Shown here piece by piece: positions 24,937 to 64,000 of a stretch of DNA of 64,000 nt. A model generated the notes under the pieces. It saw only the letters and a program-made list of their open reading frames with translations. It was not told the DNA's origin and searched no databases. The translations under genes were made by a program, and so were the position numbers. Within the stretch, counting starts at the first letter, position 1, and each line of letters starts with the position of its first letter. Source of the DNA: Asparagopsis taxiformis. Taxonomy: Eukaryota; Rhodophyta; Florideophyceae; Bonnemaisoniales; Bonnemaisoniaceae. The DNA is taken from assembly GCA_030407315.1 (NCBI GenBank), contig JALQPE010000020.1, positions 39,312 through 103,311 of the forward strand. Direction: 5' to 3'.

Positions 24937-27082
24937 GTCACAGCATAAGCAATTTTTTGAAAAACCGGTAAATGTTATGGTCTGGACAATTAGAAATTAG
25001 TGGAATGACAAACAATCAAACCCTATAAGAAAATGAATATGTACCCGTGATATACCTCAGATGAACCTATGATGTACGTGATATCTGTACTGTGTGCAAG
25101 AGATACTTCGATGATGTCCGAAAGATGAGCGTAAAGACATCTCAGGTCCATCTTTGGTGTATCGCTATGCGGCCATCAGCTGAAGAGCGAGTGTTCCTTA
25201 TCGGTACATCAGAGGAGCATCATGTATGTCATATGTTCATCGTACGGCCATCATTGGTACATCTTCAAGTCTTACTGGGAAAAAAATCCCAGAAATTACC
25301 GGCGCCGTGCCATAGATAAGTAGTGGAAATACCGTAAAGAATATAGTGGAATGAAACTGCACCGTGGGAGTGTGTATAAGCACCGTGACATGGTGTAATT
25401 TTCCACTACTGTACGGAAAAATAACAATGGAAAGGACAAGGACACGTCGCGTCGGTCATGACGGTGACCGGAGGTGGCATATTCCACGATTTTTATAATT
25501 TCCATACTGGAATGACGGAACGGGGGAACCATATGTGTGACAGTACCATGTTGGACTCGAACCATGAACTTGGATGGTTACGCCGGTCTGTAGTACAGAT
25601 GCCAGTCGTAGCAGTGTAGTGAGGCTAGAGGGATGGACTGGTACTGACTGTTCCAACGCGCCATAACCTTCGATGAAGTCTCGTTTTGGCCGTCCATGGG
25701 GAATATGATATCATATGGAAGAAGCGAAATGCAGAGTGTATGACGTTAACTAGCTAATCTCGGTATGGCCATTGTTGTACCATAGGTAGGGTATGGTGGA
25801 AAGAATAGACAATTGTACTTGAGTTTAGTTTTTCTAGTATTACTTAGTACAAAATGGAACCATCTATATTGATTTTTAGCACAGATACTACGGCATAGTT
25901 ATTATCGAAGTCGCTAAATTTTTGAATGAAGTCACTCTCCGCATACATAGGATTGACCGGAAGAGTGAGTTTCGCCCTGGCTTTAAGCGTGACTAGTATC
26001 TTGAACGCAATAGTAGTTTGTTTGACAACTTGTATGGCAGTAGGGAACATGGTAGTGATTTCGTATCATACTATAAAAATGAAAAAATTGGACGTCACAG
26101 ATATGGGTGAAGTAGTATCTAGTGAAGAAGTCGACGAAGACTTGTCCTAAACAAAATTGTAGATAGTGCGTTGTAGTATCTTTATTTCGTGGGGCAACTA
26201 TGACTAGGCGTGAATCATTGTGAATTAGGCGACAGAGCGGAAAAGCGAAAGCTGGCCGTGAGCGTGAGCGAGCAGCGACCGTAGATGCACTTCCCTGTGT
26301 CGGAACGCAAATAGACGTATGGTACCAAGTTGGTGATGACGCAATATGGTGGAAGGCTAATGTTATGGAAATCAAACTTCCTGAGCAGTATCCTGACTGC
26401 AGTGGTAAGCCGTCAGTGGGAGACCGCATCGATGTAGACAGAGGAGATGGCGTGTACACGCCTGGTGTGGTGGAGCACAATGGACAGGATGTGGGTGATG
26501 CAATTGTGAGGTTGAAGACGGAGGAAAAGGATATTGCAGTGATGGAAGTATCAAAATGGCGGTATTCGGATGCTGTGAAGCCAAGGCACGATGAAATGGT
26601 GGATGCGGAAGGCGGATTGTTATATGATGCTATCCCTGAAAGGAATTACCCTTGTGTTTCCTACGAACATGTAAAATTTCTGATGGCAAGTAAGTTAATG
26701 TCCGGGGGTCAACCACCGACACAGTGGCGAAGGAGCAACAGAGAGGTTGTGGACTACGAAGCGGTGGGAGTAGAATTTCATGAACAATCAGATGGAGAAT
26801 CTGAAGCGATATCACTGCAAAGGAAGAAGCAAAAAGTGGAATCAGCACTTGACGCCAACACATACGGTGGTATGGAGAGAGGGCTGAGAACACTAGAAAA
26901 TATAATGCTTTCTGGAAATGGTAGCGAGTGTCGGCTTGGTTGAAGCGGAACGGTTCGAAATTGTGGATGAACAGTATTAGCTGGTACGGTTTTATTGATG
27001 CTCTGACAGCGTGCGGTAGAGAAAGTTGTGGAACAGGTTAATCGAAGCACTTTGTCAAACTCAGGTGGCGGCTACCCACATA
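24937..27082 (+). mobile_element. Repeat unit R, copy 1 (right end truncated)
   Basis: This stretch matches 37874-39747 in the same orientation. The match begins at GTCACAG and runs through the non-coding leader and the gene to GGCTACCCACAT. Copy 1 has about 270 bp (roughly 25010-25280) that copy 2 lacks. On the right the match stops at 27081, exactly where a pair of palindromes joins it to the ParB module. The family is repeated and partly decayed, so I call it a mobile element of unknown class. No terminal inverted repeat was found. Confidence 0.75.
26200..27072 (+). pseudogene. Element-R gene, copy 1, nonsense mutations
   Basis: The gene starts at the ATG at 26200 (MTRRESL...) but meets TGA at the eighth codon, where copy 2 has CGA. 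The frame then continues in register through IDVWYQVGDDAIWWKANVM, and the largest open part is 26365-26943. It stops at a second TGA where copy 2 has TGG. The start has a basic helix followed by a motif with paired Trp (VWYQVGDDAIWW) that recalls Tudor/Agenet-type beta barrels; that is a resemblance only. Both lesions are C-to-T or G-to-A changes. The function is not recognised. Confidence 0.6.
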
Positions 27083-29063
27083 CTATGTGGGTATGCTTCG
27101 CATGATGCGAAGCAGGCTCATGTTCGACATTCCGCTGCTTCTTATGAGTGAGTCTCACATTGGCAGCAGAAGGGCGGCGTTTGCGTCGAGCCTTAGTCTT
27201 CTTCTTCAATGTCGGATTGAAAAACTCTTTCAAGTTCGTTTCCAAATCCTGTAAACGCGTGGTTCTCCGTCGCATTCGAACCTCACTGCTCCGGTCGTCC
27301 CCTCTATACATTGCAATGGCATTGGTGAGATGCCATTGCAACTCCTTCGGCTGCTTAACCGACCCAATTGCCATCTCTGTGCTCAGAAATGACTTGCGCA
27401 TAATACTCTTTGGGCGCCCATACGCAGCGTACAGAGAATTTGCTATTGCAGTCACGCGACGGACGTATGTATAGAAGTCGTTCACGTCAAAGCGTCCATC
27501 CGGACGTCCACCATGAGCAGGGTTCAAGTACTCCGAAAGACCACGCAAGACGAAGACAAAGTTTTCTTCCAGCAACTCGCGCACTATCTTGTGGTCCAGG
27601 TGCGTTATCCCAATCTCGTTGCGGCGCTCGGAATTGTTCAGCTCACGCAACACGTCGTCGAGAACAGGATGCTTCAGCGTTGCTATAGCCAAACGCGTCC
27701 ACCGCCGGGCCGTGTTCGTTGAATTCATCATCCCCATGAACTGCGCCTCGAACAATGTTCGGATGACATCAGACTCACGCAAGTCGCCAGCGTTTTCCAC
27801 GTTATTTGCAACAGCAATCGTACGGATGAACTGCTGGATGGACGACAAGATTCGAACCAGGGAGCGCTCCGTCAGTTGCGTCCCAGTCGTATGGTTCGAC
27901 TCTGCACTCTTGTGGATGATCTCATGAGGCTGAAGATCACTGTTGTCCTTGCGGCGAAGGTAGTACACATCCAGAGGCTGAGTAACCCAGCGCAAGCGGT
28001 TTGCGTCCTGTGGCAGCTTGGTTCTGTGCATACGGGTGAGGCGAGTGAAGTCATCGGCAATGCTATGCATAGCATTGAGACGATGCAGTCCGTCGATCAC
28101 GGTCACGTTCGCATTGGCATGGAATTTGCCATTCTGGAACAGACGCGTGTCGGCGGGCAGATGCGTGTTCTGCGACCTCAGCACCGTCACAGTGATACGC
28201 GAAGAGCTCACATACCCCACAGCCAACATATTGTTGCGCAGGTCCTCCAAGTGGTCTTCTTTCACATCCCGAAGGGTCACGGCCGGTTCCACTAGCTGCC
28301 TCACCAACACAGTCGCTCCTTCTCCGACGTAATCCGACGTCACAAACTTGGGCACCGTAATTTGCGTCCCCTGCTGCTCACGAATGCTCTCTGCCACCTC
28401 CGGTTCGTCGTCCACCTCGGTTACGTCCTGCGTAGTAGCTTCGGTGACGTTGGAGCGAGCAGGGTGCTTCGTGCCTCCACTGGAGGCTCTGGCAGAGCGA
28501 GCAGGGCGCTTCGTGCCTCCCGAAACCGGAGTGGAGCGTGCTGGATGCTTCGTACCCCCCGAACCAGTGATTTCGCCTGCCGGACCGGTACTGGGCATCC
28601 GTCCCGAGCTGGCCTGGTTCGTCGCTGCGTTGAAGTTTGACGCTGCAGCAGGGGTACGAATGTCGCTAGGGCCATCCTCCGCAGCGGGGCGCATCATCCG
28701 AGTATCCCAAGGGTAAAACGCCGCGGCGTATGCTCCACCCATCGTCTCCGGCGGTCCCTCGGCGCCATCAAACATGTACGGGAACGGGAGGTCCTTGAAC
28801 TTGTCCTTAGTCGCAATGTTGCGCACGACGATATAGTCCGCCTCGTCGGTTTCCGGCAGCTGGTGGTTGTGCAGCGTGCGCGGAAGGCCAACATCGCCAC
28901 CAGCAGTGCTCACCGAAGCCGTCCCAATATGCACGGCCGCACCGTCCACGTCCGCAAACAAATTGACATCGACGCCGCGCTTGAGTCCGCGCGACTCCGC
29001 TGACGCGCTCACTTGATCGCCGCAAACCGTTGAAAACAAACTGCTGAAATGCGTATCCGCCAT
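27072..29063 (-). CDS. ParB/sulfiredoxin-fold protein, copy 1, C-terminus truncated
   Basis: 663 residues from the ATG at 29063 (MADTHFSSLFS...). Residues 160-210 hold three tandem SGGTK(H/R)PARS repeats. The core motif VTVIDGLHRLNAMHSI, with D324-G-L-H-R, is that of the ParB/sulfiredoxin superfamily, in which this loop binds nucleotide or phosphate. The C-terminal half is helical, ending in a basic tail (LKKKTKARRKRRPSA). Compared with copy 2 the last ~100 residues are lost at base 27105 and replaced by eleven residues read through the palindromic junction. Bacterial ParB proteins bind DNA sites and hydrolyse CTP; some relatives are nucleases or phosphotransferases. Which of these applies is unknown. 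A repeat array follows its 5' end. Confidence 0.75.
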   Translation of the reverse strand: MADTHFSSLFSTVCGDQVSASAESRGLKRGVDVNLFADVDGAAVHIGTASVSTAGGDVGLPRTLHNHQLPETDEADYIVVRNIATKDKFKDLPFPYMFDGAEGPPETMGGAYAAAFYPWDTRMMRPAAEDGPSDIRTPAAASNFNAATNQASSGRMPSTGPAGEITGSGGTKHPARSTPVSGGTKRPARSARASSGGTKHPARSNVTEATTQDVTEVDDEPEVAESIREQQGTQITVPKFVTSDYVGEGATVLVRQLVEPAVTLRDVKEDHLEDLRNNMLAVGYVSSSRITVTVLRSQNTHLPADTRLFQNGKFHANANVTVIDGLHRLNAMHSIADDFTRLTRMHRTKLPQDANRLRWVTQPLDVYYLRRKDNSDLQPHEIIHKSAESNHTTGTQLTERSLVRILSSIQQFIRTIAVANNVENAGDLRESDVIRTLFEAQFMGMMNSTNTARRWTRLAIATLKHPVLDDVLRELNNSERRNEIGITHLDHKIVRELLEENFVFVLRGLSEYLNPAHGGRPDGRFDVNDFYTYVRRVTAIANSLYAAYGRPKSIMRKSFLSTEMAIGSVKQPKELQWHLTNAIAMYRGDDRSSEVRMRRRTTRLQDLETNLKEFFNPTLKKKTKARRKRRPSAANVRLTHKKQRNVEHEPASHHAKHTHIVCG
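27073..27114. repeat. Two abutting 21-nt palindromes at an element junction
   Basis: Palindrome 1 (27073-27093) is TACCCACATA, one C, and the reverse complement. Palindrome 2 (27094-27114) is TGCTTCGCAT, one G, and the reverse complement. The first arm of palindrome 1 is the end of element R; the last arm of palindrome 2 is the start of the ParB-module homology. The 22 bases between are inverted copies of the two flanks. Confidence 0.95.
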
Positions 29064-29404
29064 GGTTGTTGAGTTGGAAAGGAAAAGAGATGGTTGACGT
29101 TGACGTATTGGAGTGATGTGGATGGTAGGTTTCACGTTGCTTGAAGAATGGTCGTGAACGCCAATCGCTGGAAATAATAACACAATACAACCGAAATTTT
29201 GTTAGGTACACACCTATCGTGACCGCTGGAATGCAAGACAGGCAATCGAGATGTGAGTGTCCGTTCGGAACGGGCCCGAGTCGGGCTCTCGAAACCTGAC
29301 GAGGTGGCGTGAAGCAGGCAGTGTCCTTGATGTGTAATGTGTTAAAATTACAGCTGTCAAGCTAGGCGGCTTTTGGGGCGGCTGCGAGCACCCCTTTATC
29401 CGGG
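29064..29404 (-). promoter_or_regulatory. Upstream region of ParB gene, copy 1
   Basis: It is nearly identical to 59167-59506, upstream of ParB copy 2, including a stretch around 29226-29320. Conservation of this 340-bp segment in both copies, between the ATG and the repeat array, suggests promoter and 5' UTR, but it could equally reflect recent duplication. Confidence 0.5.
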
Positions 29405-30125
29405 GAACACCCTGATTTGAGTTAAAATTTGGGCTATTCTCAAAAACATGCACATTTGAACATGTTTTTGAGATGGGGGTGTGCCGTACGGCACAATCGA
29501 CCCGCCCAAATCGTTGATTTTTGCAAGATTTTTTGTGCCCGAAATTTTAGAATTTCTGGGCTGGCCAGCAGTGCATCTGAGCTGGACATCCACCGGACGT
29601 CCATTTCAGGTTGGTCGTGTGCTGCCTACATCCACGCATTGCAGCAACTAAACAGGCGGGTTCACTACTACTATAAAGTGCACGGAATATGAGTAACGTG
29701 ATGGGTGAGTAGTGTTTGTGTTGAGGGAGTAAGGCGGGACCATTATGAAACACGGAAGAAGATGCCTACCTAGCATAACTTAGGCTTGAAGCCTGGAATC
29801 GACCCATCTTTCGGCGCCATTTAGCCTCACAGTTAGTGCTTACAGAAGCCAGTGATGACCCCGCTCGGGGCGGCGGCTCCGGTTCCTGGGGCCGTTGTGG
29901 CCAAATTAGACACCCTGATTTGAATTAAAATTTGGGCTATTCTCAAAAACATGCACATGTGAACATGTTTTTGAGATGGGGATGTGCCGTACGGCAGAAT
30001 CGACCGCCGAAATGGATGTTTTTTTGCAATATTTTTTCTGCCCGAAATTGTAGAATTTCTGGTCTGGCCAGCAATGCATCTGAGCTGGACATCCCCATGT
30101 CCAGTGGCCGTCCAGATGTCGCTCA
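29405..30125 (+). repeat. Palindrome-rich tandem array 1 (two units)
   Basis: Unit A starts at 29405 and unit B at 29901, so the period is about 496 bp. Each unit begins with a ~215-bp core: CCCTGATTTGA(A/G)TTAAAAT, a fold-back (CTCAAAAACATG...CATGTTTTTGAG), the perfect palindrome GTGCCGTACGGCAC (one base changed in unit B), GAAATT...AATTTC and TGGACATCC...GGACGTCCA. A less conserved spacer with AGGCTTGAAGCCT follows. Unit B passes directly into the leader of the methyltransferase-SET gene. Confidence 0.9.
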
Positions 30126-30444: not shown

Positions 30445-33400
30445 ATGACGAATAAGCGCAGGCGCAACAGCAATCCGATCGTTGACGACGCAACCGTGCC
30501 AATTCTGCGCGAACCCGCTAGCCCTTGGGAGGATTCTAGTGACATGGGTACACGTCGAAACGTAGGTCGCGCCGCCCGCGAAACTACTCTCGCTGGCAAA
30601 GACTTCCTCCGCCTCTTGCTGGATTTATTCGCCCACTCAAGTTTCGCAGACTTGACGGACAAGCCGGGAGGTTTCACATACGCGGACCTTGGCGCTTGGG
30701 TTGCGCAGGGCACGGAAGAACAATTTGCGGCGCTGCAAGGTCGACTCAGCATGGCCTTCAGCGGTCGTTCGAAGAATGCTGGAGTCGAGGCGGATGTTGC
30801 CGAAATCGTCATGGCAGAGATGAACGTTGAGCGAGCCAAGCAGATTGTTCGTCTGGCATTACCGATTGCCGAGTTTTCAAGACAGGATGAGCGTATCGGG
30901 CAATGGGTTGAGCACTGCATCCTTTCTGGGATCGTGCCGCAGACCTTCCTTATTGGATGTAACATGCTTCCTTCGCCACTACAGGCGCCGCAGCGCGGGG
31001 AACCAAGCGCCTTCGTTCTTGCTCCACCGGAAACGTTCGAGGTATTGATGTATTTCCAAGCGTTGTCTATCATCCGAAATCACAACAAGAACCTGCCGCG
31101 TCGCCGAATAGGCGACGCGGCCGAGGAGGGGAACGAAGCCGCACGCGTCCCAGCCCATCGGAAAAGCACTAATCGAGCTTGTTACGTGGTTCAAGTTTTA
31201 TACCATGCTTGGACCGATGTGGCCTTCGCCGCAAAGTTTTCCAGCTTCGAAGAGTTGATGGCGCCGTACATCATTTTCGACAGCAGTGAGCATTGGTTTG
31301 ACGTGCTCGATGAAGGTCTATTCGCACCGATGGAGCAGAAGCTAGATCTCTACCACGACAAAGCTCCCCTATCTCATCCTGATGGATATGGTGGAAAAGT
31401 AGAGACAAGAACCAGTGCGCAGCACAGTGCATTTAGGTACCTTGTGAGGAAGTTCTTCGACCGGTTGCAGTTTCTTATCGTCAACCCGGACCTGTACACC
31501 TGGCCGGAGTCCGACCGCTGGGGGGCGCTGGAAATATACTTGTCAAGCGGAAATCCGGACAAGCTGCCAGCGTACTTTGACACCCTCGACGAAGACGTTA
31601 TGGCTGTCCTCCGCCCGGCACCACAAGCCGCGGACGCAGAAAAGGTCCCCAAGCCGGTTGATGACACTACCACTCGTCGCAACACAGGAGGGAGAGGTTT
31701 GGTTCCGTCGACAAGACACACAACCAGGCTTCAACTTGGACCTGGGAGGACCAGTCTTACTGCCCAAGGGCCGTCTCCCCCGTCACCGTCACCCCATGCG
31801 ACAGAAGAGCAGGAAAGTGAAGGGCAGGCTCTCGCAAAGGACTTTCTTTCGAAAATGAGTCAGTATTGCCGGGTGTACGACGTCCCTTTCGAAGATTTGG
31901 TCAGTGCCGACGAGAGCCGAGAACACGTGCCCATCACGGGCAACGTTCAGCTCATTCTGACTGATCCGCCCTACAATGTTCGTCGTAAGAGGAACGATTC
32001 CAACTCTTCGTACGACAGGCTAACTGCAGAAGATATGCAGGCTAGCATCGAAGTGTTTGACGAGCTGTTGCGCCCCGGTGGCCACGGCATCGTGTTCTGC
32101 TCCGTTTTGCAGTTCTACGAATGGTTCCATTACTTGGAAACGTACAAAGGACCGCAGTCAGAAGGCCCAACCGATGCTGCTGCCAGTGATGACGGGTCGG
32201 ATGAAGAAGAGGTTACGTCCATGAATTCGGACTCCGAAGCATCGCAGCACAGTGGCGAAGAAAGTGCGGATGAGGAGGAGGAGGAGGACGAGGAGGAGGA
32301 GGACGTCGTTCGGAATTCAGTTTTCTTCGTTGACGAGGTACCTCTGTTGTTTGTCCGACTACCTGGGCACCTCTATCAAATGCCGGGGCGGAAGAGGTAC
32401 CAACGCATGAACATGGCAGAGGTCGCTATCCACTTCTGGAAGCGAGGTGTTCCGTTCAAGACTGGAAGCGAGATGGTGGCCTATAGGAACCACGGATACA
32501 TGGACGGCACGTACCCGGCGTGGTGCAACGTCACCATCAATATGCCCGCCATCGATTCGAATGAGATGGTGTGGCGAACAAGGAGCACAACCGGTGCTAC
32601 GGTCAGAGTTCGTGCAGAGCAGAAGAGCGTCGCTCTCATGATGGAGTTGATCAGCCAGCATTCACAGCCTGGTGATATTGTTGTCGATCCATTCTCTGGC
32701 ACTTTCGCAACGGGAAAAGCAGCTATGAGCTTGCCTGAGCACCGTGTTTTCGTTGGCAGTGACATGGACAAATTGTGTGTGGCACGATCGCTTCCAAAGC
32801 TGTGTGCAGTCATGTCACGTGTAATTCTTTCAAACAACACTGACATGAGGGTCACGACAGAAGCGAAACAGAGTGCTGAGAAGTTCTTGGCGTCCCCCTC
32901 TGTCACGATGCGTACGCAGAGGGAACGCAGGATCATCGAACCCCCACCTGGCCTTCCCCTGTACCAGAGGTTCCCGAAATATATTCGGCAGTACCTCTGG
33001 CAGCTGTGCCCAGAGTCGATTGCGTCGCACGAGCACATGGAAAAACCGGTACAATATTGGCCACCTTCCCTGCGCCGCTGGTTGCAAACTGAAAACCCTC
33101 GCGTGATGCGGGCACACGATTGTGTTGCGAAAAAATTGAGCGTTCGACCATCGCTGATTAAGCATCCAAATGCAGGAAGAGGGCTCTTCGCTGAACAGAC
33201 ATTTAATGTTGGCGACGAAGTATGTGCATACTACGGAACTGTTGTGTACTCTGATATGAGCAAGGAGTCGATGAGGTTCGCGTACGGAGAGGGTCACATG
33301 GCGATAACGAAGGAAACATTCTTGATGTATGCCATCAAGCTGTATGCAACAGCGGAGGACGACGAAAACATCGAGCATCCAATTTGGATTGTTCCGGCTC

Positions 33401-33648
33401 CGTTCTGTTCGGCGCAGTTCATCAACGACCCGCGGTATTTGCGAGGTGAGGACACTCCGGCGGAAGACACCAGGCGGATGGCCAACGTCGAGTTTGTCGA
33501 GAACTACAGCAGCGGTTCGACGGGGAAGAAGCTCAAGGCGAAGGACCTAGAAAATCCGAAGATCATTGTAGTACGTGCAATCCGCGATATCCGTCCGGGG
33601 CAGGAGCTCTACGTTCATTATGGGACAGCGTTTAGAGCATGGAATTAG
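30445..33648 (+). CDS. Fused DNA methyltransferase and SET-domain protein, intact
   Basis: An uninterrupted ATG-to-TAG frame of 1067 residues. Residues 1-480 are of unknown function. LILTDPPYNVRRKR, with DPPY at 507-510, is catalytic motif IV of DNA amino-methyltransferases. An acidic Glu/Asp run lies near residues 600-630, then the variable region, and DPFSGTFATG starting at 748 is the SAM-binding motif. The order motif IV, recognition region, motif I defines the bacterial beta class (N6_N4_Mtase); DPPY rather than SPPY favours adenine N6. From about 893 to 1065 there is a SET domain: NAGRGLFA, GDEVCAYYGTVV, FINDPRY (in place of the usual NHS), ANVEFVEN and DIRPGQELYVHYG. SET proteins methylate lysines, typically of histones. 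I infer a nuclear enzyme that marks both DNA and chromatin. It is flanked by repeat cores in opposite orientation (29901-30125 and 33868-34080). Confidence 0.9.
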   Translation: MTNKRRRNSNPIVDDATVPILREPASPWEDSSDMGTRRNVGRAARETTLAGKDFLRLLLDLFAHSSFADLTDKPGGFTYADLGAWVAQGTEEQFAALQGRLSMAFSGRSKNAGVEADVAEIVMAEMNVERAKQIVRLALPIAEFSRQDERIGQWVEHCILSGIVPQTFLIGCNMLPSPLQAPQRGEPSAFVLAPPETFEVLMYFQALSIIRNHNKNLPRRRIGDAAEEGNEAARVPAHRKSTNRACYVVQVLYHAWTDVAFAAKFSSFEELMAPYIIFDSSEHWFDVLDEGLFAPMEQKLDLYHDKAPLSHPDGYGGKVETRTSAQHSAFRYLVRKFFDRLQFLIVNPDLYTWPESDRWGALEIYLSSGNPDKLPAYFDTLDEDVMAVLRPAPQAADAEKVPKPVDDTTTRRNTGGRGLVPSTRHTTRLQLGPGRTSLTAQGPSPPSPSPHATEEQESEGQALAKDFLSKMSQYCRVYDVPFEDLVSADESREHVPITGNVQLILTDPPYNVRRKRNDSNSSYDRLTAEDMQASIEVFDELLRPGGHGIVFCSVLQFYEWFHYLETYKGPQSEGPTDAAASDDGSDEEEVTSMNSDSEASQHSGEESADEEEEEDEEEEDVVRNSVFFVDEVPLLFVRLPGHLYQMPGRKRYQRMNMAEVAIHFWKRGVPFKTGSEMVAYRNHGYMDGTYPAWCNVTINMPAIDSNEMVWRTRSTTGATVRVRAEQKSVALMMELISQHSQPGDIVVDPFSGTFATGKAAMSLPEHRVFVGSDMDKLCVARSLPKLCAVMSRVILSNNTDMRVTTEAKQSAEKFLASPSVTMRTQRERRIIEPPPGLPLYQRFPKYIRQYLWQLCPESIASHEHMEKPVQYWPPSLRRWLQTENPRVMRAHDCVAKKLSVRPSLIKHPNAGRGLFAEQTFNVGDEVCAYYGTVVYSDMSKESMRFAYGEGHMAITKETFLMYAIKLYATAEDDENIEHPIWIVPAPFCSAQFINDPRYLRGEDTPAEDTRRMANVEFVENYSSGSTGKKLKAKDLENPKIIVVRAIRDIRPGQELYVHYGTAFRAWN

Positions 33649-33867
33649 GGTCACGAAAGATGTTTTCATTTCGACTACAAATAAAGCTACGTTCCAGAGT
33701 TGAAGTATATCATATAATGCAGCATGTCCAGCCACCATTACTCCAGGGTGAAACCTATTGAGCAGTACTCGCCTGTCAAAAACCAATCGTTCACACTCTA
33801 GATGCACTTCGTCCGAGCAGTGAACCTGACTGCTTGGATGCTGTTATGCGTGCAGATGCAAAATACA

Positions 33868-34080
33868 CGACCAAGTTGAAATGGACGCCCGGTGGATGTC
33901 CAGCTCAGTTGCATTGCTGTCCGGCCCAGAAATTCTACAATTCAGGGCAGAAAAAAATATTGCAAAAAACATCGATTTGGGCGGTCGAAAGTGCCGTACG
34001 GCACACCCCCATCTCAAAAACATGTTCACATGTGCATGTTTTTGAGAATAGCCCAAATTTTAATTCAAATCAGGATGTCT
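33868..34080 (-). repeat. Single inverted repeat core right of methyltransferase-SET gene
   Basis: The ~213-bp array core in reverse orientation, ending at 34080 with the complement of AGACATCCTGATTTG. Its variants (GGACAGCAATGCAACTGAGC, GGGCGTCC, CCCTGAATTG) match the unit at 60387-60607 beside the 3' end of the second gene copy, not the unit at 29901. With unit B it forms inverted repeats around a 4.2-kb cassette. Confidence 0.9.
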
Positions 34081-34307
34081 TCCGGACATAGGGGTGCTCG
34101 CGGCCTAGCTCTACAGCTGTAATTGTACCTCATTAAATACTGTTGATGACTGCCTACCGTATACAATCTGGGCTGTTGGCGTATTATCCGGTACTTGACC
34201 TGACCTGAACGTTCATCGCAGACCGTTGTGGTTACCGACACTATACAGCAATCTTTTTTGTATCTCGTGCAACTCAATCGTTCCATCGCTTCCGGGAAAG
34301 CTTCATT

Positions 34308-39747: not shown

Positions 39748-40317
39748 GAGATTGACGGTGCATGCACGAGTGGAACGGCTATTAGCGGACCTGTCCAGAT
39801 TCCAATCTCATTGAGCACTGAGCTATTCCGGGAAATGCTAAAGGGAACAGCAGAAACCTATCGAGGGGGGTATTACAAAGTGTACCCAGGGCTTCACGCG
39901 GCAGTGGCTGGAAATGGCGGAGAAGCTGTGAACATTACGTGTTCCAGTTTTTCCACACTATCGGATCTGCTAGGATTGGGGCACAGATGGCGAACTGAGT
40001 CTCTGGTTTATAGGCGTAACATAAGCAACTCGGAAGGGGAGGAGAATGAAGAGTGTAGTGACATGAACGGAACAGCGAGGCCATGTGCTCTGCGGTTGTT
40101 TGGTACGATATTGTGCTCGGAAACGATGGAAGCACAGTCGACATCTGTTGCAATTGGCAGTAGCTCGTTCTGCATTGCCGGATCTAAATCGAACGTATGG
40201 TGTCTGGCTCGCAACGGTAGTGCTGTAGTCCAAGGTGAATATGTGAACGGAATGGAGCTGCAGGAATGTCCCTCGATATGTGGCGTGCACGGGGGGTTCG
40301 ATGGTGACGGGGTCTAG
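38864..40317 (+). pseudogene. Element-R gene, copy 2, one frameshift
   Basis: The gene starts at ATG 38864 (MTRRESLRIRRQ...) and reads IDVWFQVGDDAIWWKA. A one-base deletion relative to copy 1 near 39022 shifts the frame, and the rest is open from 39010 to 40317 (KLPEQYP...FDGDGV). This copy shows the C-terminal half missing from copy 1. The N-terminus is basic, followed by a Trp-rich segment that may be a small beta barrel, a KRK-type basic patch (RKKPKVESAL), and a C-terminal part with scattered Cys and no recognised motif. It is not recognised. It converges on the gene at 40683-42356. Confidence 0.55.
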
Positions 40318-42647: not shown

Positions 42648-42780
42648 GGGCAAGGAAATTGGTAATCTTTTTTGCGCTGAAATTGCTGCAGTAAAGAGTG
42701 ATCTACCCAAGTGCATTTAGGTAGATCAGTTTTTACTGCAGTAATTTCATAGCTAGAAAAATTACCGAAATTTAATCTCA
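42648..42780. repeat. Degenerate fold-back MITE
   Basis: An imperfect inverted repeat whose arms contain ATTGGTAAT, CTGCAGTAAA and GATCTACC and meet near a short GTGCA-containing loop. It is a diverged relative of the hairpin at 43161-43286, 500 bp away. Confidence 0.75.
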
Positions 42781-43473: not shown

Positions 43474-45732
43474 CTAGACAGTGAAGTAATCATGACCGTA
43501 TTCGATAAACAGCTCGGATCCAGCTGAGATAGCCTCGTTAGCAGTAACACATACAACTTGGTAGCTAGGCACAGAGCTCTCACTGATGAGTTCTTGTACA
43601 GGGGAGGAGAAACTAACATTAGCAGTTCGCGACGGGCGATCGGTTCCCTCTGCTGGATCCACGAACGTTGGGTCGTTGATTTTCGAAGCAGCGCAATACT
43701 CGAATGGAACAATGAAGATGGGGCGGCTAGACGTAGACGGAAGCAAGCAGGTGATATTTGGGTCCTTGATTTGAACTGCGTACTTCCGGAAGCGCTCAAT
43801 CGAGAACGAAGTCGGACCCGTACCAAACGTCTTCAGTTTTGCTTGGTAGAGATCCTTGTAAACCACTGCCCCAAAATATATTTCCCTGATATCGTCGGGT
43901 ACTATAGTACCCGACGATATCTCCTGGATCAATATCAACTCTTGCGAAGAGTCCATCACCAGCTGCAGGTATAGTTGAAGTTGCAACGTATACATTGTGT
44001 GCCATTGTATCAATTGATAGCAGAGTTTTACTATCCATGGTGGACAACAAGCCCAGCAGTGATTGTGGCCATTTGTGAATAGGAAGGTCTATCAAGTCAT
44101 TGTGCTGGTCTGGGATGCACCAAATGGCGGTCAGAAAGCTGATGAGGTGGGGTGGTAGTTGTGTCGAACTTGGTAAACTGGAGGGGTTCTTCGAGTGGGA
44201 ATCGTCATCGGAAGTTCCGAGTTGAGAAGTGGCCAGCTGCTGCAGGGCGGGCGTGGACTGTTGAGCAAAGTTCCCAATAGAGACCTGCTGCAGAAATGCA
44301 AGATTGACTCTAGGAAGGGATAGTTCAAAGCAGTCCGTGAACTTCTCACACCCCACAAACCTCCTGTACTGACCGTGGTGCATAGTAAGGCATGGAACTG
44401 CAGTAGAGAAAGTGCCAGCAAACATGTACACGACCAAGTCTCCCTGGTTTGAGAAACGTCCAATGAGCTCTTGCATGAGAGCTACGGTCTTCTGCTCGGG
44501 GCGCAACGTAACCTTTTCTTGTCCTTGTCCAAATATTTCACTGTCTCCGATGCTGTGATGCGCGGGATGTTGTCGATGACATTTGTCCAAGCCTTGAACC
44601 TAGAAGGGATGTATCCTGCATTTCGGTAGTTCACCATCCCCCAGCCTTCTTTACCCTTACCCAGCTTCGTAGCATGTACAACCAGCTCGACCATATTTAA
44701 CAAACTGGTTGTAATCCTATATGGAGGCGAAGTAAAATGGGTGGGGCTCCGAGTACAGACGATAGGCTGCGAATCAACCGCGAACATAGGACTACCCGTA
44801 GAGTATTTCACTTTGCGAAGCTCGTATACCCAATTGTAGAACAGAGCAGCAGATGTGAATATGAGAACATGACCACCCTTGCGCGTCACCTTGGAAATTT
44901 CAGCTACCGTGTCTTCGATTTCTTCCTGACGGAGGACATCGTAACCAGAGTTTCCTCTGCCAGACATACGCCTAGTATTGTACGGCGGGTCAGTGAGTAC
45001 CAACTGAGCACCTTCCCGGATTTGCGGCTTTCGAGGATTGTCAATAGCGTCATAGTTCTTCAAAAGGTCTCTGAAGCTGCAGTTGAAAGTATGCAGGACA
45101 GATCCTTTCATGTTGTCCATTTCTGGAGGAATCAACACTTCATCTTCTGCACGCATGGATTTTATATCAGCTCTGGCCGCTTCGACGGTACCGCTGTTAC
45201 CGCTATTCCTGCTCGAGCTTCCTGCACCAGAAGGGCTTTCATCTAGACGTCTGCGTTTAGCATTCGGGCTCGTTCCGTTCCCGCCGGGCGGAGAATCCCG
45301 TACTGGAGAAGCTGTTCTCTCAGTGTCTCCGAACAGCTCCTCATTAGGGTCGGGCGTTGATTGTGGCTCTTCTGTGAGGCTGAATGCCGTGAGTTGCCTT
45401 TCAACCATACCCAGAGACCGAATAGTCGTAAACCTCCCAGCATCTGGGGAACCAGTCGACGCCTGGAAGCCCTGTAGGAAAGGTATTGCTCGCGGTGAAG
45501 AAACGGTTTGGTCGAACAATTCTTTGTGCCGAAAGATCGTCATTATGTGCTCCCAGAAGGACGTTGCGCAGAGGCGCATCTGAGCATCTTGCAGCAGCGT
45601 ACGATGGACAGCCGCACTCGAGATGCTTGCCGAGTGCTGCACTCTTCGAACAGCTCCTCTGCTGTGCAACAAAGTCTTCAGCTCTCGAAGCGGTGCGAAG
45701 CCCCTATTTTCCGAGTCCAGGACGTGGTACAC
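43474..45732 (-). pseudogene. Third methyltransferase-SET gene, diverged and broken
   Basis: The minus-strand frame from 45732 lacks an ATG at its start. It reads LVLTDPPYNTRR (motif IV kept) and then GMVNYRNAGYIPSRFKAW, aligned with the intact gene. A frameshift near 44515 (KDKKxVTLRPEQKTVALMQEL) separates it from the next part. The SAM motif has decayed: VYMFAGTF in place of VDPFSGTF. The SET half reads AAGDGLFA and GDIVGYY, is interrupted by an inserted inverted copy at 43888-43921, and resumes with FGAVVYKDL, KINDPTFV, TANVSF and AGSELFIEYGHDYF. Relative to the copy at 30445 it is an old paralogue, with identity confined to motifs. Its 5' end abuts a cluster of GACAGT palindromes. Confidence 0.85.
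43888..43921. repeat. Perfect 34-nt palindrome inside the SET pseudogene
   Basis: GATATCGTCGGGTACTA followed by its exact reverse complement, with no spacer. The second half adds codons absent from related SET domains and shifts the frame, so it looks like a templated inverted insertion. Confidence 0.95.
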
Positions 45733-45754
45733 TACGGTGTTGAGAATGAAAAAA

Positions 45755-45958
45755 GACAGTAAATTTACTGTCTGAGACAGTAAAAATTACTGTCTGGCCA
45801 AGACAGTGCGCGGAGACAGTAAAATTTACTGTCTGGAAATTTCAGAATACTGCTGCAGCAGTAAACTGGCACGAAATCTGCACTACGGTGTTGAAAAGGG
45901 GGCCTCAGACAGTACTGCGAGACAGTGATTTTTACTGTCTGAGACAGTAAAAATCACT
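45755..45958. repeat. Cluster of GACAGTAA...TTACTGTC palindromes
   Basis: Perfect or near-perfect palindromes at 45755-45772, 45776-45794, 45815-45833 and 45924-45958 share the half-site GACAGTAA. Single half-sites lie between and after them. CACTACGGTGTTGA occurs before the first and the last palindrome group (about 45730 and 45881), so the cluster may be a duplicated unit. It sits at the 5' end of the third methyltransferase-SET gene. Confidence 0.9.
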
Positions 45959-45999
45959 ATGCGGCAAATGAAAATTAATGCCACACTTGGAGACAGTGA

Positions 46000-53984: not shown

Positions 53985-54968
53985 AAATTGATTTTTCGGA
54001 AATTTTAGAATTTCTGGGCTGGCCAGCAATGCAATCGAGCTGGACATCCACCGGACGTCCATTTCAGGTTGGTCGTGAGAGAGCGGGGCGGGACCATGAT
54101 GGAACAAGGACCAAGACCTGTCCCTGGCGTATTGAGCCTGAAATTGACCCTTCGTCAGACGCCATTTAGCCTTACAGTTGGTGCTTACAGAAGCCAGTGA
54201 TAGCCCCGATCGGGGCCGGTGGCCGGTGCCTGGGGCCGTTGTGGCCAAATTAGACACCCTGATTTGAATTAAAATTTGGGCTATTCTCAAAAACATGCAC
54301 ATGTGAACATGTTTTTGAGATGGGGGTGTGCCGTACGGCACAATCGACCCGCCCAAATCGTTGATTTTTGCAAGATTTTTTGTGCCCGAAATTGTAGAAT
54401 TTCTGGGCTGGCCAGCAGTGCATCTGAGATGGACATCCACCGGACGTCCATTTCAGGTTGGTCGTGTGCTGCCTACATCCACGCATTGCAGCAACTAAGC
54501 AGGCGAGTTCACTACTCATACAAAGTGCACGGAATACGAGTAACGTGATGGGTGAGTAGTGTTTGTCGTGGAGGAGTAAGGCAGGACCATGATGGAACAG
54601 GGGAAACGATGTCACCCTAGCATAACTTAGGCTTGAAGCCTGGAATCGACCCATCGTTAGGCGCCATTTAGCCTTACAGTTAGTGCTTACAGAAGCCAGT
54701 GATGACCCCGCTCGGGGCGGCGGTTCCGGTGCCTGGGGCCGTTGTGGCCAAATTAGACACCCTGATTTGAATTAAATTTGGGCTATTCTCAAAAACATGC
54801 ACATGTGAACATGTTTTTGAGATGGGGGTGTGCCGTACGGCACAATCGACCGCCCAAATCGATGTTTTTTGCAATATTTTTTTGTGCCCGAAATTGTAGA
54901 ATTTCTGGGCCGGCCAGGAATGCATCTGAGTTGGACATCCACCGGACGTCCATTTCAGGTGATCGTGT
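53985..54968 (+). repeat. Palindrome-rich tandem array 3 (three units)
   Basis: Unit D (53985-54243) lacks the left half of the core. Unit E starts at 54244 and unit F at 54748, a ~504-bp period. D has the same short spacer type as unit H at 60001 (GAGCCTGAAATTGACCC); E has the long type seen at 29405 and 59507. Unit F passes into the 3' flank of the dioxygenase gene. Cores carry the fold-back, GTGCCGTACGGCAC and GGACGTCCA. Confidence 0.9.
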
Positions 54969-55234
54969 ATCGTGCACGTCCAGCCATTACCAGAAGCAAG
55001 TTGGCGATGAAGCACGTATAAACCCAATTGTTCTGCTATTTCTAGCATAGACCATCGAGTCTAGAGATGTGAGGGAATCGTCCTGGAATCATGCTCCAAC
55101 CCACTAGGGAATGGACAATCTAGTTTGAAAGCATGGAACGGAAGTGCATTATAGTAGGTTCATAGATTGAAAGTGATAAAGGAGATGATTATATTCTCGA
55201 TAATTGTTTGCTAAAGTAGTTGTTGTTAAGATAT

Positions 55235-56880
55235 CTAGCCGTCGGAAAACTGTTCTTCCTCTTCGTCCTCACTATGATAGTGAACTAGATATCCAGGTTG
55301 TCCCGGCAGAAGAGGCACTACCGGGGCCACACTCGGTGTGTGCATTACATCCTTGCGAGGTTCTGTCGTCTTCATCCGCATCATTCGGAGCTGCCCTGTC
55401 TTCGGCCTACCATCTTTCTTGACCGGGATGGGAACAACTGTCTTGTGGCGAACATTGACAGGTGCCGGTTGACTTTGCCTTGCAGACCGGCGCGGAGCAT
55501 TGGCGATGACTTCTTCTTCGAATCCCAACCGCCTGATGAAACCAAACGAAACATTGTCGGGAATCGGATACGACGCATTCCTGAAATACGTGTGATACCT
55601 CGTTGTCGTGTGTGACACAACTCTGTCGACATGCCCTGCCCCGGCATGTTGTACATGGCCGTGACGATGAAGACTGAACGTGGCGGAACGATTACCTTCT
55701 TCAGCTTCATCGTCTTGGCGTACATATCTAATTCCAGCGCTTTGGAAAAGACGTACTTGTGGGACCCTGGACACACCCAGATAGGGAATGGGTCATCTCC
55801 GTTGGCAATAACAAAGTAACCCGGAAGTTGATCTTTGCGGTCGCGAGGAGGAACAGGGAAATCATTGTGTGGGACCTGCCGAGGACACCCCTTTCCCGTT
55901 ATCAAAAACCGTCCCCCAGATGCCGGCATGACAAGTTTTTCTCCCGGTAAACCGCACTCCTCCAGCCCTGTCAGCCGGACAAGGATTCCCAACCACACAT
56001 CCAGCAGGGCTCGCCGCGTCACAAACTTGAACCGGTCGATATGCGTCTCATCGTTCTCGGCATAGTCAACCAGGCAGTGGCGCGTAGACGTGAAGCGAGC
56101 CCTCCCCTCATTCCGGTTCTTCTCGTCTGTTTCATCGTCCCCCGTATTGACAATGGGACTCCACAGCTGCCGGTTCCCAGGGTCCTTGTGCACCTGCTCC
56201 CCCTCCCACGTTCCCAAAAAGTACCGAAACAATTCCTGGTTAGGAATTTCTTCCATGAGACCCAAGTCAAATGGGAACTTGTCCGACGCATCTAGGTAGC
56301 TTACATCCGCGAAATTGTGCATCACCGTATACCCTCGCTCGTTGATTTCCGTTCGGCAATTGTGGAAGTACGCCATACCAGTGCCGGCCTCATACGAATC
56401 CTTCCAGCTTGTAGACATTCGCGCAACCTGAGCGAAGTCCAGCCTCGAGGGTAGAAACGTCGATGTAGGCTCACACATCGCCTTGGCAGCCATCTTCCAC
56501 GCTGCGAAGAACATCGGATAGACGTGATCGATTTCGAATAGCACACGAGCCCGATGTTCTTCCGGAATATGCAGCCCCTCAAACACAGGGTCCATCGCCA
56601 CTTGCTTCAAATACCTCACCTCTCTGCCCTCCTCATCGATTTCCACACTCTCCAATAACAACCTGAGCTCAATCGGGGGCAGACAGCCAACCCTCACCGA
56701 TGCGATGACATCCGCGGGACGCTGCGCCAGATGATGCCCTTCGGCTCGGTCTTCGAAATCGTCAGGAAGAGACGGCATACGGTCGTCGAAGAGGAGGTCG
56801 TCTTCAGAAGGAGAGTCACGAACGATGTAACCGTCTTCATCGACTTCCACTCCTTCCGGAACAGTGAATGTAATTGTCAC
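55235..56880 (-). pseudogene. 2-oxoglutarate/Fe(II) dioxygenase, one frameshift
   Basis: About 550 residues. The frame opens at 56880 with GTG, overlapping the ParB stop by four bases, and has no ATG nearby, so it may have been the second half of one protein. QVPHNDFPV gives the iron-binding HxD (H338, D340). The strand VIVPPRSVFIVTA leads to a one-base shift near 55650. In the next frame comes HAGAGHVDRVV (distal His) followed by TTTRYHTYF (the Arg that binds 2-oxoglutarate), then NASYPIPDN, and an acidic tail (HSEDEEEEQ) before the stop at 55235. The HxD...H...R order is that of the phytanoyl-hydroxylase/AlkB-like superfamily. Substrate unknown; a demethylase role is only suggested by the neighbours. 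Confidence 0.75.
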
Positions 56881-59166
56881 TTCGCGGACCCCCCTGCTTT
56901 CGACTTGGCCCTCGTCTGCACCTGTTTGTCTTCCTCGTCCGAAGCGGTATGGACAGATTCTTGGTTGGAGGGAGTCGCACCAGCACGTTGGTTATCTTGG
57001 GGGACAATCTCAACGGCAGAATCGGGGGAACGGGCGGAGTCTTCGTCAACCTCATCACCGGAAGCAGTGGCTTGTTGTTGATCGGTGGGTTTATCAACAA
57101 CGGCCTGCTCTTCTTCCCCGGCGGATTGTTGTACCACAACCGGCTCTTCTTCCTCGAGGCGTGTGCTCCCCGTCGAGCGAAGTCGCTGTGAACGGCGGCG
57201 GATGCCATGCGAAGCAGGCTCATGTTCGACATTCCGCTGCTTCTTGTGAGTGAGTCTCACATTGGCAGCAGAAGGGCGGCGTTTGCGTCGAGCCTTAGTC
57301 TTCTTCTTCAATGTCGGATTGAAAAACTCTTTCAAGTTCGTTTCCAAATCCTGTAAACGCGTGGTTCTCCGTCGCATTCGAACCTCACTGCTCCGGTCGT
57401 CCCCTCTATACATTGCAATGGCATTGGTGAGATGCCATTGCAACTCCTTCGGCTGCTTAACCGACCCAATTGCCATCTCTGTGCTCAGAAATGACTTGCG
57501 CATAATACTCTTTGGGCGCCCAAACGCAGCGTACAGAGAATTTGCTATTGCAGTCACGCGACGGACGTATGTATAAAAGTCGTTCACGTCAAAGCGTCCA
57601 TCCGGACGTCCGCCATGAGCAGGGTTCAAGTACTCCGAAAGACCACGCAAGACGAAGACAAAGTTTTCTTCCAGCAACTCGCGCACTATCTTGTGGTCCA
57701 GGTGCGTTATCCCAATCTCGTTGCGGCGCTCGGAATTGTTCAGCTCACGCAACACGTCGTCGAGAACAGGATGCTTCAGCGTTGCTATAGCCAAACGCGT
57801 CCACCGCCGAGCCGTGTTCGTCGAATTCATCATCCCCATGAACTGCGCCTCGAACAATGTTCGGATGACATCAGACTCACGCAAGTCGCCAGCGTTTTCC
57901 ACGTTGTTTGCAACAGCAATCGTACGGATGAACTGCTGGATGGACGACAAGATTCGAACCAGGGAGCGCTCCGTCAGTTGCGTCCCAGTCGTATGGTTCG
58001 ACTCTGCACTCTTGTGGATGATCTCATGAGGCTGGAGATCACTGTCGTCCTTGCGGCGAAGGTAGTACACATCCAGAGGCTGAGTAACCCAGCGCAAGCG
58101 GTTTGCCTCCTGTGGCAGCTTGGTTCTGTGCATACGGGTGAGGCGCGTGAAGTCATCCGCAATGCTATGCATAGCATTGAGACGATGCAGTCCGTCGATC
58201 ACGGTCACGTTCGCATTGGCATGGAATTTGCCATTCTGGAACAGACGCGTGTCGGCGGACAAATGCGTGTTCTGCGACCTCAGCACCGTCACAGTGATAC
58301 GCGAAGAGCTCACATACCCCACCGCCAACATATTGTTGCGCAGGTCCTCCACGTGGTCTTCTTTGACATCGCGAAGGGTCACGGCCGGTTCCACTAGCTG
58401 CCTCACCAACACAGTCGCTCCTTCTCCGACGTAATCCGACGTCACAAACTTGGGCACCATAATTTGCGTCCCCTGCTGCTCACGAATGCTTTCCGCCACC
58501 TCCGGTTCGTCGTCCACCTCGGTTACGTCCTGCGTAGTAGCTTCGGTGACGTTGGAGCGAGCAGGGTGCTTCGTGCCTCCACTGGAGGCTCTGGCAGAGC
58601 GAGCAGGGCGCTTCGTGCCTCCCGAAACCGGGACGGAGCGTGCTGGATGCTTCGTACCCCCCGAACCAGTGATTTCGCCTGCTGGACCGGTACTGGGCAT
58701 CCGTCCCGAGCTGGCCTGGTTCGTCGCTGCGTTGAAGTTTGACGCTGCAGCAGGGGTACGAATGTCGCTAGAGCCATCCTCCGCAGCGGGGCGCATCATC
58801 CGAGTATCCCAAGGGTAAAACGCCGCGGCGTATGCTCCACCCATCGTCTCCGGCGGTCCCTCGGCGCCATCAAACATGTACGGGAAACGGGAGGTCCTTG
58901 AACTTGTCCTTAGTCGCAATGTTGCGCACGACGATATAGTCGGCCTCGTCGGTTTCCGGCAGCTTGTGGTTGTGCAGCGTGCGCGGAAGGCCAACATCGC
59001 CACCAGCAGTGCTCACCGAAGCCGTCCCAATATGCACAGCCGCACCGTCCACGTCCGCAAACAAGTCGACATCGACGCCGCGCTTGAGTCCGCGCGACTC
59101 CGCTGACGCGCTCACTTGATCGCCGCAAACCGTTGAAAACAAACTGCTGAAATGCGTATCCGCCAT
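56877..59166 (-). pseudogene. ParB/sulfiredoxin-fold protein, copy 2, one frameshift
   Basis: The ATG is at 59166 (MADTHFSSL...). One extra A at about 58885 relative to copy 1 shifts the frame; the remainder reads on to a TGA at 56879-56877. It is otherwise nearly identical to copy 1, with the three SGGTK(H/R)PARS repeats and IDGLHRLNAM. It shows the C-terminus lost from copy 1: about 100 acidic, Gln/Glu-rich residues (EEEEPVVVQQ, DSAVEIVPQ, TASDEEDKQ) ending KSKAGGSAK. Six G just before the stop would, with one more base, join this frame to the dioxygenase. The gene lies between arrays 3 and 2. Confidence 0.8.
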
Positions 59167-59506
59167 GGTTGTTGAGTTGGAAAGGAAAAGAGATGGTTGA
59201 CGTTGACGTATTCGAGTGATGTGGATGGTATGTTCACGTTAAGTTGAAGAATGGTCGTGAACGCCAATCGCTGGAAATAATAACACAATACAACCGAAAT
59301 TTTGTTAGGTACACACCTATCGTGACCGCTGGAATGCAAGACAGGCAATCGAGATGTGAGTGTCCGTTCAGAACGGGCCCGAGTCGGGCTCTCGAAACCT
59401 GACGAGGTGGCGTGAAGCAGGCAGTGTCCTTGATGTGTAATGTGTTAAAATTACAGCTGTCAAGCTAGGCGGCTTTTGGGGCGGCTGCGAGCACCCCTTT
59501 ATCCGG
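59167..59506 (-). promoter_or_regulatory. Upstream region of ParB gene, copy 2
   Basis: Counterpart of 29064-29404, with few differences. It links the ParB start to the first unit of array 2, so the ParB module and the array were copied together. Confidence 0.5.
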
Positions 59507-60607
59507 GAACACCCTGATTTGAGTTAAAATTTGGGCTATTCTCAAAAACATGCACATGTGAACATGTTTTTGAGATGGGGGTGTGCCGTACGGCACAATC
59601 GACCCGCCCAAATCGTTGATTTTTGCAAGATTTTTTGTGCCCGAAATTTTAGAATTTCTGGGCTGGCCAGCAGTGCATCTGAGATGGACATCCACCGGAC
59701 GTCCATTTCAGGTTGGTCGTGTGCTGCCTACATCCACGCATTGCAGCAACTAAGCAGGCGGGTTCACTACTAATATAAAGTGCACGGAATATGAGTAACG
59801 TGATGGGTGAGTAGTGTTTCTGTTGAGGGAGTAAGGCGGGACCATGATGAAACACGGAAGAAGATTTCTCCCTAGCATAACTTAGGCTTGAAGCCTGCAA
59901 TCGGCCCATCTTCCGGCGCCATTTAGCCTCACAGTTAGTGCTTACAGAAGCCAGTGATGACCCCGCTCGGGGCGGCGGCCGGTTCCTGGGGCCGTTGTGG
60001 CCAAATTAGACACCCTGATTTGAATTAAAATTTGGGCTATTCTCAAAACATGCACATGTGAACATGTTTTTGAAATGGGGGTGTGCCGTACGGCACAAAC
60101 GACCCGCTGAAATCGTTGATTTTTTACAATTTTTTTGTGCCCGAAATTTTAGAATTTCGGGCTGGCCAGCAGTGCAATCGAGCTGGACATCCACCGGACG
60201 TGCATTTCAGGTTGGTCGTGAGAGAGTGGGGTGGGACCATGATGGAACAAGGACCAAGACCTGTCCCTGGCGTATTGAGCCTGAAATTGACCCTTTGTCA
60301 GACGCCATTTAGCCTTACAGTTAGTGCTTACAGAAGCCAGTGACAACCCCACTCGGGGCGGCGGTCGGTTCCTGGGGCCGTTGTGGCCAAATTAGACACC
60401 CTGATTTGAATTAAAATTTGGGCTATTCTCAAAAACATGCACATGTGAACATGTTTTTGAGATGGGGGTGTGCCGTACGGCACAATCGACCCGCTGAAAT
60501 CGATGTTTTTTGCAATATTTTTTCTGCCCTGAATTGTAGAATTTCTGGGCTGGACAGCAATGCAACTGAGCTGGACATCCACCGGGCGTCCATTTCAACT
60601 TGGTCTT
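59507..60607 (+). repeat. Palindrome-rich tandem array 2 (three units)
   Basis: Unit G starts at 59507 (long type), H at 60001 (short type, 386 bp) and I at 60387. Unit G and its spacer match unit A of array 1. Unit I carries the variants of the inverted core at 33868-34080 and continues into the 3' flank of the methyltransferase-SET gene, the reverse of the arrangement in copy 1. Confidence 0.9.
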
Positions 60608-60825
60608 GTATTTTGCATCTGCACGCATAACAGCAACCAAGCAGTCAGGTTCACTGCTCGGACGAAGTGCACCTAGAGTGTGAACGATTGGTTTTTGACA
60701 GGCGAGTACTGCCGAATAGGTTTCACCCTGGACTAATGGTGGCTGGACATTCTGCATTATATGATATACTTCAACTCTGGAACGTAGCTTTATTTGTAGT
60801 CGAAATGAAAACATCTTTCGTGACC

Positions 60826-63800: not shown

Positions 63801-64000
63801 GGCTTGTCCGTCAAGTCTGCGAAACTTGAGTGGGCGAATAAATCCAGCAAGAGGCGGAGGAAGTCTTTGCCAGCGAGAGTAGTTTCGCGGGCGGCGCGAC
63901 CTACGTTTCGACGTGTACCCATGTCACTAGAATCCTCCCAAGGGCTAGCGGGTTCGCGCAGAATTGGCACGGTTGCGTCGTCAACGATCGGATTGCTGTT
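60826..64000 (-). pseudogene. Methyltransferase-SET gene, copy 2, two frameshifts, cut by window end
   Basis: Nearly identical to the intact gene at 30445 but on the opposite strand. The stop is at 60826-60828, and base 64000 corresponds to about codon 7, so the ATG lies just outside. One G is missing near 63755 (after GAWVAQG) and one C is missing near 61530 (five C become four), just before the SET half. The DPPYN and FSGTFATG motifs and the SET motifs remain readable in separate frames. The acidic run is a few residues shorter. It is adjacent to unit I of array 2. Confidence 0.93.

Follow-up and report, generated by a model that had tools for sequence, protein, structure and literature searches.

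The 64-kb window analyzed here, that is, the whole stretch of DNA with its 64,000 nucleotides, was found to contain an intact gene, P0001, in which a bacterial-type DNA amino-methyltransferase (MTase) is joined to a SET domain. As judged from sequence comparisons, this MTase-SET fusion is real, conserved, and unusual, and its family is unnamed so far. No account of such a fusion was found in the literature searched, which covered few subscription papers. The reading frame is uninterrupted over its 1,067 codons, and the features that accompany it in the window are compiled in Table 1.

Table 1. Features of the window that are related to the MTase-SET gene, in order of position
Feature	Position	Strand	Basis or remark
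Gene A (P0051), divergent from MTase-SET copy 1	27072..29063	-	ParB-like motif DGLHRLNA
Repeat R, between gene A and MTase-SET copy 1	29380..30094	+	
MTase-SET fusion gene P0001 (copy 1), intact	30445..33648	+	1,067 aa; Pfam, family alignment
N-terminal conserved region of P0001	residues ~60-470	+	
MTase domain of P0001, residues 501-776	31945..32772	+	Pfam PF01555, E 2.9e-15; PHROG phrog_67, E 5e-17
SET domain of P0001, residues 911-1060	33175..33624	+	Pfam PF00856, E 9.7e-7; structure-profile matches
Partial copy of R, inverted, 3' of MTase-SET copy 1	33803..34105	-	
MTase-SET copy 3, divergent, eroded	43474..45762	-	ORFs 44482-45579, 43796-44476, 43474-43995; tblastn of P0001
R repeats, beyond ORF 55381-56778	53999..54976	+	
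ORF P0053, 465 aa, adjoins second gene A copy	55381..56778	-	dioxygenase-like motifs by eye
Gene A second copy (P0052), oriented as MTase-SET copy 2	56877..58997	-	
R repeats, between second copies of gene A and MTase-SET	59483..60672	+	
MTase-SET copy 2, broken, runs past window end	60826..64000	-	MTase ORF 61368-63716, SET ORF 60826-61437

Both halves of P0001 matched Pfam above the curated cut-offs, N6_N4_Mtase (PF01555) with 57.2 bits against a cut-off of 26.7, and SET (PF00856) with 29.6 bits against 22.4. This agrees with the first-pass annotation, which had proposed a beta-type amino-methyltransferase and a SET domain in a single intact frame; both halves were recognized by the profile search, so that the result that would have refuted the proposal, one half being neither a methyltransferase nor a SET domain, did not arise. 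The MTase motifs are located at the positions given to them at that time, DPPY at residues 507-510 and DPFSGTFATG from residue 748, and the SET span of residues 893-1065 proposed then encloses the Pfam domain. Motif IV (DPPY) is therefore placed N-terminal of the AdoMet-binding motif I (DPFSGT), which is the permuted order of beta-type enzymes, and in motif I a phenylalanine stands at the last glycine of FxGxG. Among the PHROGs, P0001 matched phrog_67, a DNA methyltransferase, whereas the NCBIfam matches were MTase-like but all below cut-off, together with a weak match in the SET region.

The fusion is not confined to this gene. A protein search with residues 470-1067 of P0001, in which 7,989 candidates were scored, retrieved at least 49 relatives at E ≤ 0.001; these relatives come from other DNA samples, and the family alignment comprises 50 rows. 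Among the matches listed, P0002 is 99% identical to P0001 and the remaining relatives are at most 37% identical; lengths range from 592 to 1,491 aa (813 to 1,491 aa in 46 of 49), and the precomputed Pfam annotation of the source assigns both domains to 23 of the 49. When 48 of the 50 rows were scanned at E ≤ 0.01, PF01555 was detected in all 48 and PF00856 in 38. The columns of the N-terminal, MTase, and SET regions are all filled in 46 of the 50 alignment rows, and the N-terminal region (residues ~60-470), for which no Pfam match was obtained, is kept across the family. The domain order is identical in relatives that share 21-35% identity, and the recurrence of the architecture across the family argues against two mis-joined genes. 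The relatives represent clusters, of which that of P0002 holds 13 member sequences and others hold 14 and 32, although the members of a cluster may derive from several samples. Given that about fifty related proteins were found in other DNA samples, the MTase-SET family is old.

The two halves appear to differ in their origin. When a profile built from the 50 rows was compared with solved structures, its MTase part gave the best match to 5hek (E 6.8e-16) and a further one to CcrM (E 2.3e-8), both of which are adenine-specific, whereas the match to the structure of a cytosine-N4 enzyme was weak (E 0.0024). Because the motif is DPPY rather than SPPY, we infer that the MTase half favors 6mA over 4mC. 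The SET structures matched by the same profile were those of SETD8 (E 1.8e-5), KMT2C (E 2.1e-5), and EZH2 (E 2.9e-5). At 58 prokaryote loci the match was confined to the MTase region, and the same was observed for the 2, 1, 11, and 0 loci obtained in four scans of viral contigs. These 58 prokaryote loci, 14 loci from virus collections (with ORFs listed for 3 of the 14), and one phage region form a set of 73 loci, all of which matched the family's MTase segments at a threshold of 1e-3, whereas none matched any of the 48 SET segments. For this reason the MTase-SET fusion looks eukaryotic, in the relatives by extension. An origin of the whole fusion from a giant virus or a phage was considered and rejected, since viral and prokaryote matches lie in the MTase region only. 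In direct tblastn searches against phages, P0001 and P0050 gave no match at 1e-5; P0011 matched 440 phage records, which cover part of the MTase at most, and P0047 matched 87 plasmid records. The genome that hosts P0001 is eukaryotic, as Dopey and exportin-7 genes were identified by Pfam in the window.

The window was initially described as harboring three copies of the gene. Three are present, but a single one is intact within the window, copy 2 being frame-broken and copy 3 eroded. Copy 2 is 98.7% identical to copy 1 over 3,616 nt, and over the 3,175 aligned positions of the gene there are 25 mismatches and one 6-base gap; the frame is broken by two further gaps of one base each. Codons with a single change comprise 12 synonymous and 11 nonsynonymous changes, as compared to 714 and 2,454 sites, respectively; the total of 23 changes is small, and one codon that carried two changes was omitted. 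The nonsynonymous changes are fewer than expected under neutrality (P 0.0018), and because they are so few, the codon comparison indicates that selection acted before or between copies 1 and 2. The protein of copy 3, at 43495-45762, is 24-31% identical to P0001 in three tblastn pieces that are spread over three ORFs, and no tblastn match to the first 270 residues of P0001 was detected. Its pieces are nearest to different family members (35-40%), and copy 3 therefore belongs to another lineage and did not arise by recent decay of copy 1.

Copies 1 and 2 lie beside a repeat, termed R, whose eight cores show a mean identity of 90% in alignment. R contains a perfect palindrome of 14 bp and a dyad of 34 nt. 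The sequence GTGCCGTACGGCAC occurs 8 times with at most one mismatch (7 times exactly), always within R and in none of 100 shuffles, but these occurrences are not independent since R is one repeat family. The stretch of dyad and palindrome has 51 invariant columns of 56, as compared to 102 of 142 elsewhere (Fisher P 0.004, for a stretch picked after viewing the alignment). Palindromes beside copy 3 were considered as counterparts of R, but they were judged to be small repeats of a separate kind. Relative to gene A, the MTase-SET segment has opposite orientations in the two copies; recombination between the R repeats that flank copy 1 in inverted orientation could produce such a flip. Pfam detected no transposase, reverse transcriptase, or integrase in 20 of the 34 ORFs of at least 150 aa in the window, and no target-site duplication was recognized beside the inverted R of copy 1; the right end of copy 2 lies beyond the window. 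Since the copies differ in age, are accompanied by repeats and a co-duplicated neighbor, and have multi-member clusters elsewhere, the MTase-SET element is likely to be mobile. The earlier reading as a mobile element is thus upheld as to the presence, next to repeats, of three copies that differ in age, to which the 13-member cluster of P0002 is added, but not as to the hallmarks of transposition, as neither transposase nor reverse transcriptase nor target-site duplication was found.

The neighboring gene A was duplicated together with its upstream repeats, and the two copies of this unit are 97.5% identical over 2,993 nt. The C terminus of P0051 is truncated, its match to the other copy stopping at about position 27105, and in P0052 the initial residues lie in another frame than those of P0051; neither copy of gene A is clearly full length. 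Neither P0051 nor P0052 matched a ParB model in Pfam, NCBIfam, or PHROG, and a database search with P0052, in which 8,000 candidates were scored, returned no relatives. A lead came from two distant relatives, the family member P0050 and P0054 (954 aa), in which the MTase is fused to a ParB-like N-terminal segment with DGAHR instead of the SET domain; gene A has DGLHR. P0054 was recovered in a search with residues 1-640 of P0050, which otherwise matched P0050 itself only, and it matched phrog_67 with an E of 3.9e-27. P0050 matched a PHROG ParB model weakly (E 0.0014), and no Pfam ParB match was obtained for P0050 or P0054. P0052 shares 26 of 79 residues with P0050 (BLASTP, E 4e-4) and 11 of 33 with P0054 (E 0.002). 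The score of the gene A core was 72 against residues 1-200 of P0050 and 58 against P0054, values reached by none of 300 shuffles in either case, whereas for full-length gene A against P0054, 3 of 100 shuffles scored as high, and this match does not stand out. Among viral sequences, the family matched L063 from IMG/VR best (ORF 6972-8222; 43% identity over 73 residues); this protein is composed of ParB_N (E 4.7e-5, below cut-off), an HTH, and an MTase. The scores of its ParB segment against P0050 and P0054 were reached by 79 and 55 of 500 shuffles, respectively, and do not stand out; that against gene A was reached by 3 of 500, which is modest. Gene A was hence not accepted as a proven ParB, since no ParB model matched and the shuffle tests were mixed, and the evidence for a functional link between gene A and the MTase is suggestive. 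The ORF P0053 was likewise not accepted as a 2-oxoglutarate dioxygenase, its motifs having been seen by eye without a family or structure match, and it stays a lead.

Information on the catalytic capacity of the family can be drawn from the 50 alignment rows. In motif IV, D507 is present in 47 rows, P508 and P509 in all 50, and an aromatic residue at position 510 in 46 (Y in 40, F in 6), whereas D748, G752, and T753 of motif I are present in every row. The corresponding counts for the SET domain are 44 for G911, 46 for G913, 48 for Y935, and 45 for N994, followed in the C-terminal part by 49 for N1014, 45 for E1054, and 43 for Y1059. SET enzymes usually carry a histidine after the asparagine, but position 995 is an aspartate in 42 of the 50 rows, and because of this replacement the SET half may depart from the usual type or lack activity. 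Five rows have an altered motif IV (P0005, P0008, P0016, P0021, and P0031, with YPPY, DPPQ, SPPR, APPQ, and DPPL found among them), and their readable SET residues look normal; P0005 stops short of the last SET residue. In six further rows (P0038, P0039, P0042, P0044, P0047, and P0050), the key SET residues are degraded or the domain is absent, while the MTase is kept with a normal DPPY. Most members look capable of both reactions, one of which seems to have disappeared in some lineages. Given these five and six rows, the alignment indicates that the MTase and SET halves are not strictly coupled across the family and that their coupling is dispensable in some lineages.

The reading that we favor, and to which we would give about even chances, is that of a writer borne by an element, composed of a prokaryotic or phage MTase and a eukaryotic SET domain, that marks its own DNA and a lysine. 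As the most likely origin, a prokaryotic or phage amino-methyltransferase would have gained a eukaryotic SET domain, and the fused gene would now reside in a genetic element that is repeated and probably mobile. The MTase half would methylate adenine at N6, or less likely cytosine at N4, in DNA near the element, the SET half would methylate a lysine, with a histone as the most likely substrate, and the element would thereby set its own chromatin state. One guess is that an element marked in this way stays active or escapes silencing. We infer the catalysis, the histone substrate, and the self-targeting from the sequences compared, and a single protein that may couple a DNA mark and a histone mark is a good hypothesis. 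A more elaborate version is unlikely. In it, a selfish eukaryotic element would hold a full self-marking system, with a putative ParB-like gene A product that binds parS-like palindromes of R and recruits the MTase-SET protein, so that a bacterial-type DNA mark and a histone mark would be set in one act to control the chromatin of the element.

It is somewhat unlikely that the gene belongs instead to a family of host chromatin writers that was duplicated by local rearrangement, with one duplicate left intact and no element involved. Such an origin would be in line with the missing transposase, reverse transcriptase, and target-site duplication, with a single intact copy that bears a signal of purifying selection, and with the ordinary eukaryotic genes (Dopey and exportin-7) of the same window, but it does not readily account for three copies of very different age within 64 kb, two of them decaying, for the shared repeats and the neighbor co-duplicated at 97.5% over 2,993 nt, or for the clusters from other samples, which hold up to 32 near-identical members. 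A different objection concerns the activity of the protein, of which the MTase half might be a DNA-binding or RNA-acting relic while SET alone works, or the reverse, so that the fusion serves as a tether. The rows in which one half is altered and the other looks normal, in either direction, are compatible with this; P0001 and most other rows, however, carry both sets of motifs, and the five residues P508, P509, D748, G752, and T753 are invariant in all 50, which renders a mere tether improbable. That gene fragments were fused by assembly or by chance, without biological unity, has nothing in its favor other than the broken state of copies 2 and 3, and its probability is practically nil, as it is refuted by a family that retains the same domain order at 21-35% identity.

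Clear parallels as well as differences emerge when P0001 is compared with known systems. The MTase half resembles the N6_N4 methyltransferases of phages and bacteria, including phrog_67 and ParB-MTase fusions such as L063, but these enzymes lack the SET domain and the N-terminal region of P0001. The FxGxG-like motif of P0001 in turn has another residue in place of its third glycine (DPFSGTF). The SET half resembles KMT5A/SETD8, KMT2, and EZH2, as reflected in weak but consistent profile matches and in the conservation of G-x-G, N994, N1014, and Y1059; it differs from them in D995 in place of the histidine, in an INDPRY stretch, and in that pre-SET and post-SET regions were not recognized. Another group for comparison are the transposon-borne DNA methyltransferases of eukaryotes, reportedly treated by Iyer et al. 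in 2011 and de Mendoza et al. in 2018. The known examples comprise 5mC DNMTs and adenine enzymes of the Dam type, including the Dam domains of DIRS-type elements, and, like them, the MTase-SET element would carry its own DNA methyltransferase. To our knowledge, no SET fusion has been described among them, although earlier work may mention such fusions. A close parallel in its features is N4CMT of bdelloid rotifers, a bacterial-type N6_N4_Mtase with a permuted motif order and a chromodomain (PMC8885841), and thus, like P0001, a permuted PF01555 enzyme joined to a chromatin-related domain in a eukaryote. N4CMT combines a chromodomain, a reader, with SPPY (PMC11065753) and is a single host gene, whereas P0001 combines a SET domain, a writer, with DPPY and occurs in repeated copies. 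P0001 falls outside the definition of the N4CMT family, as it has DPPY and SET instead of SPPY and a C-terminal chromodomain. A bacterial-type DNA methyltransferase with a chromatin domain in a eukaryote is thus already known, and MTase-SET is another version.

The link between DNA and histone marks is usually made by readers and by complexes that are recruited. With a bacterial-type writer of DNA bases and a writer of lysine marks in one polypeptide, MTase-SET would be a natural fused two-mark writer, and it was found in a family of elements and not as an isolated gene of a host. The family also bears on the claim, made in the N4CMT paper, that N4CMT is without eukaryotic homologs and absent from other sequenced eukaryotes (PMC8885841). 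Given the old family and the repeat-rich stretch in which it lies, MTase-SET may serve a selfish element as its own writer of two chromatin marks. If active, it would make it possible to ask directly whether such an element is able to set the state of its own chromatin, and whether 6mA is deposited together with a histone mark.

Members of the repeat family R lie beside the first two copies of the MTase-SET gene and beside the copies of gene A, which encodes a ParB-like motif (table). Two elements within R, a perfect palindrome of 14 nt and an imperfect dyad of 34 nt, are more highly conserved than the remainder of the repeat. Palindromic sequences lie on both sides of the divergent, eroded third copy of the MTase-SET gene.

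Positions of repeats, palindromes and the 742-aa ORF in the window
Feature	Position	Remark
Repeat family R	29380-30094, 33803-34105, 53999-54976, 59483-60672	Units of ~500 nt
Two long palindromes of related sequence	42656-42773 and 43160-43287	Shortly downstream of the third MTase-SET copy
Short-palindrome cluster around GACAGTAAA/TTTACTGTC	45754-46009	Expected place of the third copy's absent start
742-aa ORF	47264-49492	Inside the G+C-rich block 46001-52000

The stretches 25281-27081 and 37954-39744 form a repeat pair with 88.6% identity over 1801 nt. This repeat contains the 5' part of a gene that is found in its full-length version at 39010-40317; the match to the latter ends at 27081, and the gene A match starts shortly after, at 27105.

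The block at 46001-52000 has a G+C content of 0.60-0.62, compared with ~0.43-0.55 in other parts of the window, and a Pfam scan of its 742-aa ORF returned zero family matches. A Pfam scan likewise gave zero matches for the ORF at 36671-37927 (-), which may resemble the C-terminal part of KDZ/Plavaka-type transposases. Another ORF (18043-18408, -) contains NPPYVPT and could correspond in appearance to the terminal part of an N6AMT1/HemK2-type methyltransferase of the host. Adjoining the second copy of gene A, a 465-aa ORF (55381-56778, -) has HND and PGSH stretches that, by eye, resemble 2-oxoglutarate dioxygenases, a likeness that found no support in Pfam, NCBIfam, PHROG or PDB.

P0050 and P0054, distant relatives of the MTase-SET protein P0001, are related to each other and lack the SET domain; in both, a ParB-like N-terminal segment is followed by a long middle region and then by the methyltransferase.
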